From assembly GCA_024401455.1 (NCBI GenBank), contig JAKSLA010000027.1:1-39092 (forward strand): a DNA stretch of 39,092 nt, written 5' to 3'. Both the position numbers and the translations under genes were made by a program. The notes below the pieces were generated by a model. The model was given only the letters and a program-made list of their open reading frames with translations. It searched no databases and had not been told where the DNA came from. This DNA is from Paludibacteraceae bacterium (GTDB taxonomy: Bacteria; Bacteroidota; Bacteroidia; Bacteroidales; Paludibacteraceae). Positions 10,863-39,092 of this stretch are shown here, piece by piece; position 1 is the stretch's first letter, and the number at the start of each line of letters is the position of its first letter.

Positions 10863-10914
10863 GTAGAGACGGTGTGCACACCGTCTCTACAACATTGCGC
10901 ATACCGTCTCTACT
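10863..10914. repeat. REP-like palindrome plus a half copy
   Basis: Bases 10863-10890 form a perfect 28-bp palindrome with arms GTAGAGACGGTG and CACCGTCTCTAC around TGCA. A further half unit (ACCGTCTCTAC) follows at about 10903-10913. On the minus strand the TAG of this half unit (10910-10912) is the stop codon of the YD-repeat lipoprotein. Related units occur at 35911 and 38025-38104. Confidence 0.8.
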
Positions 10915-11824
10915 CGTAGTATTCATATTCATACACGATTGTAGATTCATGCATATCATCTGGTTCTTCCGTGATGTTTCCTTTGCTGTCGTATTTATAG
11001 GTGTACTTGGCATACAACGAACCATCGGCATCATACCTACACTTTTCAATTCTATTTTCTTTGTCGTCGTACTGCGATATGTACTTGTACCAGAACGAGC
11101 CGTTGCCCCCATACAAACACTCCTCGATTTCCCTTCCCTGTCCGTCGTATTGGTAAACCCACTTGTTTGTCAACGAACCGCCATCGGCCCTGTACGCACA
11201 CTTTTCAAGCATATTTCCTTGGTTGTCGTATTGGCATTTGCATATCAACGTGCCATCGGATGTGTACGTACACATCTCCAGCATATTCCCTTGGTTGTCG
11301 TATTGGCAGATATCTTTGCCTCGCAACGTGCTATCAGCCCCGTACGTACACGTTTCCAGCACATTTCCTTTGACACCATATTGGTAGATCCACTTGTCAC
11401 GCAACGAACCATCATCTCCGTACTCACATTTTTCAAGCATATATCCTTGGTTGTCGTATTGGCAGACGTATTTGTAAATTAACGATCCATCGCCATTGAA
11501 GAAACACTCCTCCACCATATTTCCCTTGTCGTCGTATCGGAAAGTATCCTTGCTTTCTAACGAATTGTCACTTCTATAAAAGCGAGATTCTACCCTATTC
11601 CCCTTGTCGTCAAACAGGCGGATGTTTTGCCATAGTTTCCCATCGCCTCCGACAGAAAGCATCTTTACTGTTTTCACCTTTCCTTTCAACCCATCCCTCT
11701 CTACATCAGTCTTCTTGATTATTAAGATATCTGCTTCTACTTCTGTATTCTTGACCGAAGAGGAACAAGACGAAATCAACATGGCCATCGACAATGCCAC
11801 GAATAAAAAAATCTTATTTTTCAT
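10910..11824 (-). CDS. YD/MORN-like repeat lipoprotein
   Basis: A 304-residue lipoprotein. The start MKNKIFLFVALSMAMLISSC gives a lipobox with Cys20. From about residue 70 the chain is eight tandem units of 24-27 residues plus a partial ninth, each starting like YDNQGNMLEKC and ending near GSLxxKxxxQ. Most units carry a Cys at the same place (EKC, ETC, EMC, EEC), which is unusual for this fold. Such repeats are often auto-annotated as YwqK-type antitoxins, but nothing here supports a toxin-antitoxin pair. The repeats probably build an elongated beta-sheet structure. A canonical promoter lies just upstream (11873-11903). The stop codon lies inside a palindromic repeat. A smaller relative is encoded at 18502-18897. 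Function unknown. Confidence 0.88.
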   Translation of the reverse strand: MKNKIFLFVALSMAMLISSCSSSVKNTEVEADILIIKKTDVERDGLKGKVKTVKMLSVGGDGKLWQNIRLFDDKGNRVESRFYRSDNSLESKDTFRYDDKGNMVEECFFNGDGSLIYKYVCQYDNQGYMLEKCEYGDDGSLRDKWIYQYGVKGNVLETCTYGADSTLRGKDICQYDNQGNMLEMCTYTSDGTLICKCQYDNQGNMLEKCAYRADGGSLTNKWVYQYDGQGREIEECLYGGNGSFWYKYISQYDDKENRIEKCRYDADGSLYAKYTYKYDSKGNITEEPDDMHESTIVYEYEYYE

Positions 11825-12016: not shown

Positions 12017-13036
12017 TTATTTCTTGTTCAAGAACAAGTCAACCTCAACGGCGCAAGCAACAGTACAACCTACCATTGGGTTGTTACCGATTCCTAGGAA
12101 TCCCATCATCTCAACGTGAGCAGGAACTGAAGAAGAACCAGCGAATTGAGCGTCTGAGTGCATACGACCCAAAGTATCGGTCATACCATATGATGCAGGA
12201 CCTGCAGCCATGTTATCTGGGTGCAAAGTACGACCTGTACCACCACCTGATGCAACTGAGAAATACTCACGGCCAGCCAAGATTCTCTCCTTCTTGTATG
12301 TACCAGCAACTGGGTGTTGGAAACGAGTTGGATTTGTTGAGTTACCTGTGATAGATACATCTACATCCTCCTTCCACATGATAGCTACACCCTCACGAAC
12401 ATCGTCAGCACCGTAGCAGTTTACAGTTGCACGCTCACCGTTTGAATAAGCGATTCTCTTAACCTCCTTCAACTCACCAGTATAGTAGTCGAATTGAGTT
12501 TGAACGTATGTGAAACCATTGATACGAGAGATGATTTGTGCAGCATCCTTACCCAAACCGTTCAAGATACAACGCAAAGGCTTGTCTGCTGGTCTTGACT
12601 TGTTAGCCATCTTAGCAATCTTGATTGCACCCTCGGCAGCAGCGAAAGACTCGTGACCAGCCAAGAAAGCGAAACACTTAGACTCTGGAGAGAGCAAACG
12701 TGCAGCCAAGTTACCGTGACCGATACCTACCTTACGATCGTCTGCCACTGAACCAGGGATACAAAATGCTTGAAGACCCTCGCCGATGAACTTTGCTGCT
12801 TCAACAGCGTCCTTAGCCTTCTCCTTCAATGCGATAGCAGTACCTACAACGTAAGCCCACTTTGCATTCTCGAAACAGATCATTTGAGTTTCCTCACATG
12901 TCTTGTATGGATCCAAACCAGCCGCATCGCAGATTTGGTTTGCCTCTTCTATTGATTTGATACCGTGCTTTGCAAGCGCAGCGTTGATTTGCGCAATACG
13001 ACGGTCTTGAGACTCAAACTTTACTTCTCTAATCAT
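12017..13036 (-). CDS. GGGtGRT family protein
   Basis: A 339-residue protein carrying the motif that names the family, seen as SGGGTGRTLHPDNMA about two thirds along. It has no signal peptide or membrane segment and is therefore cytoplasmic. The family's biochemical role is not established to my knowledge, but its members recur beside a NifU-like Fe-S scaffold gene. Here that gene (13498-14199) lies upstream on the same strand, separated by an inserted four-helix-bundle cassette. Several cysteines are present, for example ICDAAGLDPYKTCEET near the N-terminus and MVGCTVACAVEVD near the C-terminus, and could be metal or cluster ligands; that is inference. Codon use is strongly biased, suggesting high expression. 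A strong terminator follows. Confidence 0.93.
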   Translation of the reverse strand: MIREVKFESQDRRIAQINAALAKHGIKSIEEANQICDAAGLDPYKTCEETQMICFENAKWAYVVGTAIALKEKAKDAVEAAKFIGEGLQAFCIPGSVADDRKVGIGHGNLAARLLSPESKCFAFLAGHESFAAAEGAIKIAKMANKSRPADKPLRCILNGLGKDAAQIISRINGFTYVQTQFDYYTGELKEVKRIAYSNGERATVNCYGADDVREGVAIMWKEDVDVSITGNSTNPTRFQHPVAGTYKKERILAGREYFSVASGGGTGRTLHPDNMAAGPASYGMTDTLGRMHSDAQFAGSSSVPAHVEMMGFLGIGNNPMVGCTVACAVEVDLFLNKK

Positions 13037-13041
13037 AACCT

Positions 13042-13076
13042 TATTTACTATTTAGTTATTTACCATTTACTATTTT
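13042..13076. repeat. Left arm of the cassette inverted repeat
   Basis: It begins TATTTACTATT and contains two ATTTAC units 7 bases apart. The stop codon of the four-helix-bundle gene (13060-13062) falls inside it, and it ends 5 bases before the GGGtGRT ATG at 13036. Confidence 0.75.
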
Positions 13077-13455
13077 TACTAATAGAATCTTTACCAATAC
13101 AATTTAGTTTATTCCTACAAGTGACAATCGAAGCAGTAATTATCTTCAACAACTCATTGCATTCATTTTGAATCAAAACCAACCGATCTTTAGATATAAT
13201 TTCAGATTCTGAAATCAACTCCAACCATCCTGCAGTTTCGTCCAATTCCTCTTCCACCATTTTCAACTTATTTAAAAAATCTTTATCCGACTTCGCTATA
13301 CAAGCTGAACGATAATTAGAAAAAGGAGAAGTACCTGAGCGAATGATTTGTTTAGCAAGAGCTTGTGAAGAAATCGTATTAGGCATTGAATCAACCAATC
13401 TGATAATTCTCAATGCAAAATCCTTGAACCGCTTCTTCAAGTCATCTTTCGTCAT
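13060..13455 (-). CDS. Four helix bundle protein (23S rRNA IVS family)
   Basis: A 131-residue protein recognisable as the four-helix-bundle family first found in intervening sequences of 23S rRNA genes. Typical parts are the opening KKRFKDFALRIIRLVDSMP, the IIRSGTSPFSNYRSACIA segment, and KLKMVEEELDETAGWLELI. It is basic and all-helical with no signal peptide. Members form pentameric bundles and relatives (Avd) act in diversity-generating retroelements, but no reverse transcriptase, template or variable repeat is visible here. The gene interrupts the NifU-like/GGGtGRT pair: 42 bases separate it from the upstream stop and 23 from the downstream start. Its translation start region and stop lie in the inverted-repeat arms, so transcript folding could control its translation. 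Role unknown; nucleic-acid binding is plausible. Confidence 0.9.
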   Translation of the reverse strand: MTKDDLKKRFKDFALRIIRLVDSMPNTISSQALAKQIIRSGTSPFSNYRSACIAKSDKDFLNKLKMVEEELDETAGWLELISESEIISKDRLVLIQNECNELLKIITASIVTCRNKLNCIGKDSISKNSKW

Positions 13456-13459
13456 TCAC

Positions 13460-13494
13460 AAAATTGTAAATCGTAAATTGTCCAATAGTAAATA
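13460..13494. repeat. Right arm of the cassette inverted repeat
   Basis: Reverse complement of the left arm at 28 of 35 positions: matching blocks of 11, 6, 6 and 5 bases. It covers the region where the ribosome-binding site of the four-helix-bundle gene would be, and ends 3 bases before the NifU-like stop codon at 13498-13500. Confidence 0.75.
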
Positions 13495-13497
13495 CAA

Positions 13498-14199
13498 TTA
13501 TTCTTTACGTGGGTCAATTGATTTAACGGCGCCATCCTCAGCCTTTGTACGGCCGTAAGTACCAGTAACACTCTTGAGAGCCTCGTCAGCAGGAACACCC
13601 TTCTTAACTGCATCCATGAACTTGCCCATGTGAACAAACTCATAACCACAAACTTGGTTGTCCTTGTCCAAGAACATCTTAGTGATGTAACCCTCAGTCA
13701 ATTGCAAGTAACGAGTACCCTTTGCCTTTGTTCCGTACAAAGTACCCATTTGTCCGATCAAGCCCTTACCAAGGTCTTCCAAACCAGCACCTACTGCCAA
13801 ACCGCCTTCTGAGAAAGCTGATTGAGTACGTCCGTAAACGATTTGAAGGAACAACTCGCGCATTGCTGTATTGATAGCGTCACAAACCAAGTCAGTGTTC
13901 AAAGCTTCCAACAATGTCTTGCCTGGAAGAATCTCAGATGCCATAGCTGCTGAGTGAGTCATACCTGAACAACCGATTGTCTCAACCAAGCACTCCTCGA
14001 TAACACCGTCCTTTACGTTCAATGTCAACTTACAAGCACCTTGTTGTGGAGCACACCATCCCACACCGTGAGTCAAACCTGAAATATCCTTGATTTCCTT
14101 TGCTTGAATCCACTTTCCTTCCTCAGGAATTGGAGCTGGTCCGTGATTTGGACCCTTAGCAACAGAACACATCTGTTGCACTTCGTGAGTGTAAATCAT
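13498..14199 (-). CDS. NifU/IscU-like iron-sulfur scaffold protein
   Basis: A 233-residue cytoplasmic protein with an IscU/NifU N-terminal-type core. WCAPQQGACKLTLNVKDG and IEECLVETIGCSGMTHSA followed by SEILPGKTLLEAL parallel the IscU segments that carry the first two cluster cysteines. The third IscU cysteine (an HCS-type site) is not visible in the following helix, so cluster chemistry may differ from classical IscU. About 45 residues precede the core and about 70 follow it, making it longer than IscU (about 128). It is usually paired with GGGtGRT, as here, and the two probably act together in Fe-S or redox metabolism; the exact role is unknown. The ATG at 14199 is supported by the 139-base gap to the upstream gene. 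Confidence 0.88.
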   Translation of the reverse strand: MIYTHEVQQMCSVAKGPNHGPAPIPEEGKWIQAKEIKDISGLTHGVGWCAPQQGACKLTLNVKDGVIEECLVETIGCSGMTHSAAMASEILPGKTLLEALNTDLVCDAINTAMRELFLQIVYGRTQSAFSEGGLAVGAGLEDLGKGLIGQMGTLYGTKAKGTRYLQLTEGYITKMFLDKDNQVCGYEFVHMGKFMDAVKKGVPADEALKSVTGTYGRTKAEDGAVKSIDPRKE

Positions 14200-38104: not shown

Positions 38105-38314
38105 CATGCGTCTTTCCTATGCCCCAAGGAGCATCTCTCCTATGTCCCCGCTCATCTCCTCCGTGCATGCCTCCGTAGATATCCACCATGCCTACTCCCC
38201 CGCACATGTCACTTCGCGCCATGTACGGGGTTACAGAAATAGCGTCTTAACAGACGCTGGGGGTGCCCTAAATGAAATGTTAGCCTACATCAAGTCCCCC
38301 TACTCTATCATTTG
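38105..38314. other. Gap between repeats and CRISPR with degenerate repeat debris
   Basis: No convincing gene. Fragments such as GCGTCTTTCCTATGCCCC and GCATCTCTCCTATGTCCCC look like decayed copies of the preceding 28-bp units. A perfect hairpin AGCGTCT/AGACGCT with a 4-nt loop lies at 38241-38258. If the array is transcribed leftwards this would be its trailer side. Confidence 0.5.
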
Positions 38315-39022
38315 TCCCTAATCCTTGTTTTAATGGAAGTTACCCTACGGGATTCAGTTATTCTTAATTTGAATGCTGAAATCAATGTGACTTAATCCTT
38401 GTTTTAATGGAAGTTACCCTACGGGTTTTTATGTTTAACCCTAAAATTATATATTATGGGAAGTCTTAATCCTTGTTTTAATGGAAGTTACCCTACGGGC
38501 GAATACAAATAGTTATGAATTTAGGAAACGATTTTCGTCTTAATCCTGTTTTAATGGAAGTTACCCTACGGGACAGCGTTGAAAATCTACAAGTTGTAGA
38601 AATCAGCCAAGGTCTTAATCCTTGTTTTAATGGAAGTTACCCTACGGGGTCATATGTTGCATATATATAGGCAAGGAGAATTAAATGTCTTAATCCTTGT
38701 TTTAATGGAAGTTACCCTACGGGACTCAGGTTGAGAAAGCCCTCGAGAAGGGCTGGTTCGTGTCTTAATCCTTGTTTTAATGGAAGTTACCCTACGGGTT
38801 ATAATATTAACTTTTAACCATTTAAACCCTCTTCGTCTTAATCCTTGTTTTAATGGAAGTTACCCTACGGGTATATATGATGTACTTCAAAAATCATTCT
38901 TGGAACGAGGTCTTAATCCTTGTTTTAATGGAAGTTACCCTACGGGTTTAGTCACTTTATATCATAAGAATAATATGAATTATTTGTCTTAATCCTTGTT
39001 TTAATGGAAGTTACCCTACGGG
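38315..39022 (-). CRISPR. CRISPR array, 10 repeats and 9 spacers, cut by the contig end
   Basis: The 37-bp repeat begins GTCTTAATCC and ends CCCTACGGG as written on the plus strand. Repeats start at 38315, 38389, 38463, 38537, 38612, 38687, 38762, 38835, 38910 and 38986. Spacers are 36-39 bp (37, 37, 37, 39, 38, 38, 36, 38, 39) and all different. The leftmost repeat has three changed bases at its 5' end, the second has one and the fourth lacks one T; the other seven are identical. Degenerate repeats mark the leader-distal end, and the reverse-complemented repeat ends ATTAAGAC, like the 5' tag of type I/III crRNAs. Both suggest minus-strand transcription from a leader to the right, outside the contig. 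No cas gene is in the window, so the subtype is open. Confidence 0.96.
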
Positions 39023-39050
39023 TGATTTATGTTATGTCATGTTTGTGTGG

Positions 39051-39092
39051 TCGGAAGAGCGTCGTGTAGGTGGTTTGTGTGGATTTCGGTGG
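39051..39092. other. Illumina adapter sequence at the contig end (artefact)
   Basis: TCGGAAGAGCGTCGTGTAGG (39051-39070) is identical to the reverse complement of the Illumina TruSeq universal adapter, and the next 22 bases agree with the adapter continuation at 14 of 22 positions, ending TCGGTGG. This stretch is not genomic. Bases 39023-39050 may be a partial tenth spacer. Confidence 0.9.

Follow-up and report, generated by a model that had tools for sequence, protein, structure and literature searches.

An S23 gene between inverted arms of seven-nucleotide words: an IVS-like cassette inserted in operons of Bacteroidota

The window, i.e. the whole stretch of 39,092 nucleotides that was analysed, carries on its minus strand a compact cassette of 461 nt (13037–13497), which takes up all the space from the stop codon of a NifU-like gene to the start codon of a GGGtGRT gene, and is composed of one S23 (four helix bundle) gene lying between two inverted arms built of seven-nucleotide words. 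The cassette is an inserted unit: in related genomes, the same site was found occupied, empty, occupied by a different element, or reduced to the arms. Related cassettes at dozens of operon gaps point to a widespread and little-noticed inserted element, and the operon S23 cassettes are read as a variant of the intervening sequence (IVS)-type elements, possibly a new class.

The S23 gene (13060–13455, minus strand, 131 aa) scored above the curated cut-offs of both PF05635 (6.5e-17; 62.1 bits against 33.8) and TIGR02436 (6.9e-25; 87.4 against 24). The gene upstream of it in the operon (13498–14199, minus strand) is called NifU-like from a weak match to TIGR03419 (8.9e-6, below the cut-off), while the downstream gene (12017–13036, minus strand) is GGGtGRT by PF14057 (1.9e-183). 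The first-pass annotation had described a unit filling exactly the space between these two genes, with 35-bp arms identical at 28 of 35 positions, the stop codon inside one arm and the start codon abutting the other. This description held, except that the S23 start codon lies 4 nt from the arm. The 5' arm (13460–13494, minus strand), which precedes S23 in the transcript, is complementary at 28 of 35 positions to the 3' arm (13042–13076, minus strand), which overlaps the last five codons of S23 and its stop codon. The 5' arm consists of period-7 words of the form ATTTACN and the 3' arm of their complement, and the repeat finder returned a longer version of the pair, 42 nt at 76% (13035–13076 and 13460–13501). 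The two arms gave the only period-7 rows of TRF in the window (13461–13494 and 13042–13075), and the 3' arm is the only lag-7 array at 19/28 or above. An ungapped scan of the whole window for inverted pairs of 35 nt whose paired positions lay 105 to 600 nt apart found no other pair above 24/35, and the local score of the arms was 35, compared with a mean of 16.2 and a maximum of 28 in 2000 dinucleotide shuffles. When the minus-strand transcript was folded, as the first-pass annotation had proposed, the arms paired in the predicted structure (z = -4.85), none of 100 shuffles being as stable. Location in an rRNA gene was considered and rejected, as there was no Rfam match in the window, where the cassette is flanked by protein genes, or in the 20 of the 30 phylum loci searched.

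The gap between the NifU-like and GGGtGRT genes was compared in 47 related genomes. It was empty (≤25 bp) in 28 of them, the empty sites that the first-pass annotation had suggested looking for, while 9 genomes had inserts of 424–501 bp and 10 had inserts of 45–266 bp. Empty gaps often hold a short purine-rich leader, e.g. aataggaggaagagatt. Eight of the nine long inserts are S23 cassettes by search or near copies of such, and in the remaining one (G079) a broken S23-like frame was recognized by eye. Eight of the ten remnant-sized inserts were scanned, and lag 7 was the best lag in seven of them (the exception being G061); a congener, G002, has lost most of the gene but kept the arms and the final part of the S23 frame. 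Within a single genus (g27), the gap is empty in G055 (5 bp) and contains two different elements in other members, one with TTCAAAA-type words in G074, and one with ATTTAC, as in the window, in G029 and G090. The G090 copy shows a frame shift of one base relative to that of G029. Window-type cassettes that are near-identical were noted in two species (L191 and L192), the S23 frame being intact in one and shifted by one base in the other.

A search of genome contigs, in which 80 relatives were kept, was extended by searches of the family and of the phylum, and revealed the same kind of cassette at many other operon gaps, another outcome that the first-pass annotation had asked about. S23 was present in 71 of 101 family genomes and in 147 of 198 genomes of the phylum Bacteroidota, with 1 to 15 copies in ordinary operons. 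Six copies fetched twice were dropped, as were L139, which is cut by a contig end, and L004, which nearly duplicates the window; both L001 and L009 were retained despite their identical proteins. The downstream flanks of the 146 non-redundant elements fell into 61 clusters, and the recurrent gaps were read as kdgK-kdgA (20), mutA-mutB (18), nifU-GGGtGRT (13), pheT-yebC (7), etfA-acyl-CoA dehydrogenase (6) and smaller ones. One of the kdgK-kdgA copies, L042, belongs to Bacteroides salyersiae DSM 18765. Pfam matches in the flanks support PfkB, KDPG aldolase, methylmalonyl-CoA mutase (on both sides), YebC, ETF alpha, fumarate reductase flavoprotein, Fer2, glyoxalase and carboxyl transferase; the remaining gene names are presumptive. 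Of the 30 mutA-mutB loci fetched, 4 could not be scored, and the other 26 comprise 13 with gaps of ≤45 bp, 4 with S23 and 9 with other inserts.

Cassettes at different sites were found to share 81–87% identity over the arms and the ORF and to diverge at the arm ends. This showed that the transferable unit is arm, S23 gene and arm, filling the stretch from one stop codon to the start codon that follows. Labels for nine named sites required 14 changes on a rough S23 tree, where the minimum is 8 and the shuffled mean 50.7; the sites therefore appear to be mostly inherited, with some moves, and distant S23 lineages occupy the same gaps. Movement between sites, as judged from these comparisons, is real but rare. 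No target duplication was evident by eye in 16 comparisons, none of which paired a very recent insertion with the corresponding empty allele. Recent proliferation was rejected, considering that the genome of the window and three congeners have one S23 each, and that the arms differ among the copies of six multi-copy genomes.

The period of seven is a general feature of the arms. Over 291 arm flanks, the best lag was 7 in 157.8, 8 in 48.7, 14 in 27.5 and 15 in 18.8, and lag 7 at 75% identity over 28 nt was reached by 34% of the arm flanks, compared with 0% of 287 control windows from neighbouring genes and 1.7% of the flanks of ordinary ORFs. The spelling of the words varies between copies, even inside one genome, so that G024 alone contains GAAGTTAC, TAACCAC, AGAGTCA, GAAAATT, GTTAAGA and others. 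In an all-against-all arm test of the first 79 loci (L041 having been dropped because of its short flank), the own partner ranked first in only 9, because close relatives mostly share the ATTTAC spelling, and the arms were therefore tested within genomes and site by site. Within six genomes, 35 of 40 copies had their best partner in the own arm, and the total score was 1421, whereas 20,000 permutations reached no more than 1049. In the phylum sample, it was best in 13 of 30, and the total of 895 (permuted maximum 649) was not equalled in any of 20,000 permutations. At orthologous sites, the own-arm match gave p = 5e-5 for kdgK-kdgA (n = 12), 3e-4 for mutA-mutB (n = 14), 0.003 for nifU (n = 9) and 0.004 for etfA (n = 6), even though, in the larger sets, the own arm came first in only 3 to 6 copies at each site; three further small sites gave p about 0.04 (maximum 0.043), and one more was too small. 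In G026 and G004, none of 237 ordinary ORFs but 7 of the 13 S23 genes reached an arm score of 30; over all six genomes, 22 of the 40 S23 genes did.

Arms of different copies in one genome resemble each other no more than background does, and arm similarity climbs with S23 identity, also at different sites; the spelling therefore follows the S23 lineage. Among 14 cassettes of one clade, the two arms were conserved at identities of 0.898 and 0.915, compared with 0.339 at fourfold sites and 0.41–0.53 just outside the arms. Conservation of the arms in the presence of saturated silent sites implies a constraint on their sequence, and not on pairing alone, and suggests that the words have a reader, for which S23 would be the obvious candidate. 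The protein itself, judging from the dN/dS values of 0.02–0.11 found in the 12 of 22 pairs for which they were computable (dS being saturated in the other ten), is under strong purifying selection. Its AlphaFold2 model (pLDDT 93.2) has four helices, and a Foldseek search with it returned 2rld (BT_0352 of B. thetaiotaomicron) and 2gsc, followed by Avd (4dwl) and by a ribonucleoprotein of a diversity-generating retroelement (DGR; 8ub7), with TM 0.69 for the last two. The predicted fold is thus the same four-helix fold as that of Avd, and the resemblance makes work on nucleic acids plausible; PF05635 is also described as Avd-like in the available text of PMC10053308.

The possibility that heptads are exclusive to S23 was ruled out by eight period-7 arrays devoid of S23 in 380 kb. 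Such arrays are mostly one-sided, and among ten arrays inspected there was one compact hairpin. In this hairpin (L270:3317-3421), heptad arms enclose no gene, and it may be an arms-only form.

A second cargo was found in comparable arms. The mutA-mutB inserts of G035 and G036 (L285 and L293) and, in a broken form, that of G010 (L281) encode GxxExxY (TIGR04256, PF13366), i.e. PDDEXK_3, of the PD-(D/E)XK nuclease superfamily. After removal of four weak or partial loci out of 30 with PF13366, the remaining 26 have arms that match within the copy, with a total of 805 where permutation reached at most 616 (0 of 20,000 as good), the own arm being best in 13. Like the S23 cassettes, GxxExxY genes therefore have matched inverted arms, and they share sites with them, e.g. 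mutA-mutB. The best lags over 52 flanks were, however, 8 in 11.6, 9 in 7.6, 10 in 8.4 and 7 in only 1.0, so the words are of 8–10 nt and not of 7, and word length thus goes with the cargo.

Heptamer repeats of Cyanobacteria are known as STRR. A search of plasmids for the S23 protein returned 26 records, 24 of which are cyanobacterial; 18 of the 26 were fetched and 16 entered the arm matrix, where the own arm was best in 12. Words of the plasmid copies include GTAGGGA, GGTGACA, AGGAGTC, GGGAAAA and TAGGGTG. Inverted heptads were also seen by eye in Azospirillum (L220). In L208, long arrays of CTAAAAG-type heptads lie on both sides of S23 in direct instead of inverted orientation; words in direct orientation were seen by eye in Gemmatirosa (L221), and no words were seen around S23 in L223. 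According to annotation, plasmid S23 is co-directed with both neighbours in 12 of 16 cases, antisense to both in 3 and mixed in 1. It may be added that in L207, L208 and L214 the cyanobacterial plasmid S23 lies inside CRISPR operons, its neighbours being cas6 and cas4 in two of them and cas10 and a cmr3-like gene in the third.

The closest known counterparts are the 23S rRNA IVSs that contain an S23 ORF, such as that of Coxiella burnetii. The available text of PMC4990558 describes its 28-bp stem, reports that excision by RNase III was shown, and discusses horizontal acquisition and an inverted-repeat-based origin. As far as can be judged from that text, the likeness includes the protein family, a single ORF bounded by terminal inverted repeats able to pair, and a unit of about 430–460 nt; in addition, the window cassette, like 23S rRNA IVSs, is sporadic, with empty sites in relatives. 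Unlike them, it resides in a protein-coding operon and not in rRNA, and its arms, unlike those described for C. burnetii in the same text, are tandem 7-nt words with copy-specific spelling.

The explanation that we favour, and to which we give roughly even credence, is an operon-dwelling IVS-like cassette with word-built arms, whose S23 protein reads its own arms, the arms pairing most likely in the transcript. An oligomeric S23 would recognize the arms of its own cassette, as the association of words with S23 lineage suggests, and the two arms would form a duplex, most likely within the polycistronic message, placing the S23 cistron in a loop. By analogy with what the available text of PMC4990558 reports for the C. 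burnetii IVS, the loop could be excised by RNase III or another RNase that acts on double strands, after which the host cistrons would be separated and yet survive. The cassette presumably has no obvious promoter of its own, and S23 would be expressed by read-through, which would explain a nearly constant co-direction with the neighbours: both neighbours are co-directed with S23 in 128 of 146 elements (5 could not be called on one side) as well as 28 of the 30 phylum loci by amino-acid log-odds, and in 121 of 146 by longest ORF. Pairing and cutting of the RNA are taken as the likeliest mode because of this orientation and of the position between cistrons.

The RNA-level comparisons did not add to this. 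Over 89 elements, G.U pairs in the sense RNA were not favoured (109, against 162 for the antisense counterpart), a count confounded by A-rich leaders. The pooled excess of antisense wobble had p 0.0015 over 271 transitions, and counted by element it was 27 against 42 (p 0.09). The share of sense wobble was 0.451 in own pairs and 0.507 in swapped arms, i.e. there was no gain, and RNAalifold on the conserved clade gave a negligible covariation term, with changes on both sides in 5 of 70 pairs. Given that there is no wobble preference, selection on the sense RNA is therefore without support. The idea of the first-pass annotation, that of an IVS-like mobile unit that has moved into an operon and whose arms could pair in the message, mask the ribosome-binding region of the gene and perhaps be processed, thus stands as regards the inserted unit, the empty sites, the potential for pairing and the presence at other operon gaps; it does not gain from wobble as regards the sense RNA, and the mobility appears slow. 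A gene always present at this position, family members elsewhere devoid of arms, and arms unable to pair stably, which would have spoken for abandoning it, are not what was found.

A serious rival to pairing in the RNA, and one that we consider unlikely, is that the arms act as DNA. They might be the ends of a small transposon-like unit mobilized in trans by a host or foreign enzyme, and form DNA hairpins in replication, with template switching keeping the two ends alike and the transcript uninvolved. Such an origin would agree with cassettes at different sites that have arms and ORF in common and stop at the arms, with the antisense copies that exist inside operons, with the missing wobble preference of the sense RNA, and with a second cargo resembling a nuclease. 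On the other hand, the co-direction is unexpected for an element without orientation preference, target duplication was not seen by eye in the compared pairs, and no recent multi-copy burst was seen inside any of the six genomes compared. Copying through RNA by a reverse transcriptase acting in trans, with S23 as an Avd-like accessory, is suggested by the match of the model to 4dwl and 8ub7 and by the likening of PF05635 to Avd, and we regard it as very improbable. Unlike in diversity-generating retroelements, there was no PF00078 match at 1e-10 in G000, and among the listed ORFs of the window no reverse transcriptase, template or variable repeat was noticed next to the cassette; PF00078 occurs in 29 of 101 family genomes, among them G024 and G033, and is missing from the S23-rich G004 (8 copies), G026 (11) and G078 (12), which weakens reverse transcription in trans. 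Overall, the presence and absence of PF00078 relative to S23 does not bear this candidate out.

It is also conceivable, if distinctly improbable in our opinion, that the cassette is a domesticated module kept by host selection, in which S23 would bind the arms in the mRNA and tune the ratio of neighbouring subunits (e.g. mutA/mutB, sdhA/sdhB, or etfA/acyl-CoA dehydrogenase). The mostly inherited sites, the purifying selection on S23, the conserved arms and the recurrence of sites between subunits of one enzyme are all in its favour. However, a host function sits poorly with the many genomes in which the cassette is absent from the nifU-GGGtGRT and mutA-mutB gaps, with broken copies and arms-only remnants, and with the use of the same gaps by distant S23 lineages and by another cargo. 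Finally, the arms could be passive slippage repeats of AT-rich gaps where an S23 gene lies by chance, as heptad repeats without S23 occur in the same genomes and such repeats are reported to be common in bacteria in the available text of PMC4692102 and PMC4679880. This seems hardly credible, considering that private words match at both ends of a copy, that the sampled ordinary ORFs have no matched arms, and that the arms are 90% conserved despite saturated silent sites.

Bacterial heptamer repeats are known and unexplained, as far as the available text of PMC4679880 and PMC4692102 goes. The former describes TAACTGA repeats in Beggiatoaceae, Cyanobacteria and Bacteroidetes, with relatives lacking repeats at the same gap, and the latter GGGNATC repeats in Xanthomonas and Nostoc. 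Compared with these descriptions, the cassette arms are likewise intergenic, have period 7 and occur in the same phyla, but their words stand in matched inverted pairs around a gene and are freely spelled. The terms S23 and four helix do not appear in the available text of PMC4679880, nor does 'four helix' in that of PMC4692102, and a partial literature search, which covered neither subscription papers nor preprints, found no paper that connects S23 to such repeats.

The heptad words, their private yet matching spelling, the spread beyond Bacteroidota and the second cargo had escaped the first-pass annotation. We tentatively propose, with somewhat less than even confidence, a general class of compact one-gene intergenic cassettes enclosed in inverted arrays of tandem words. 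In this class, the cargo would set the word length (7 nt for S23, 8–10 nt for GxxExxY), the spelling would be private to the copy and identical at both ends, and the protein would read the arms of its cassette. The long-known and unexplained heptanucleotide repeats of Bacteroidota and Cyanobacteria would in that case consist in large part of active arms, or decayed remnants, of S23 cassettes. The S23/IVS element is taken out of rRNA and placed in ordinary operons of most of the Bacteroidota sampled, and two old puzzles, namely the role of the S23 protein and the abundance of 7-nt repeats in bacteria, are joined. Both become testable, as each copy has its own matched pair of words, and an exchange of words from one copy to another would probe binding, pairing and cutting. 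Should the transcript be cut at the arms, operon messages would be divided in a way that is absent from current annotation.

Elsewhere in the window, a CRISPR array with a repeat of about 37 nt (GTCTTAATCCTTGTTTTAATGGAAGTTACCCTACGGG) occupies positions 38300–39020, up to the contig end, where the last bases (39045–39092) resemble sequencing-adapter read-through and are presumably a contig-end artefact. In addition, about 3.8 copies of a 78-nt repeat are located at 11180–11466, within an ORF on the minus strand (10910–11824), and encode protein repeats of 26 residues.
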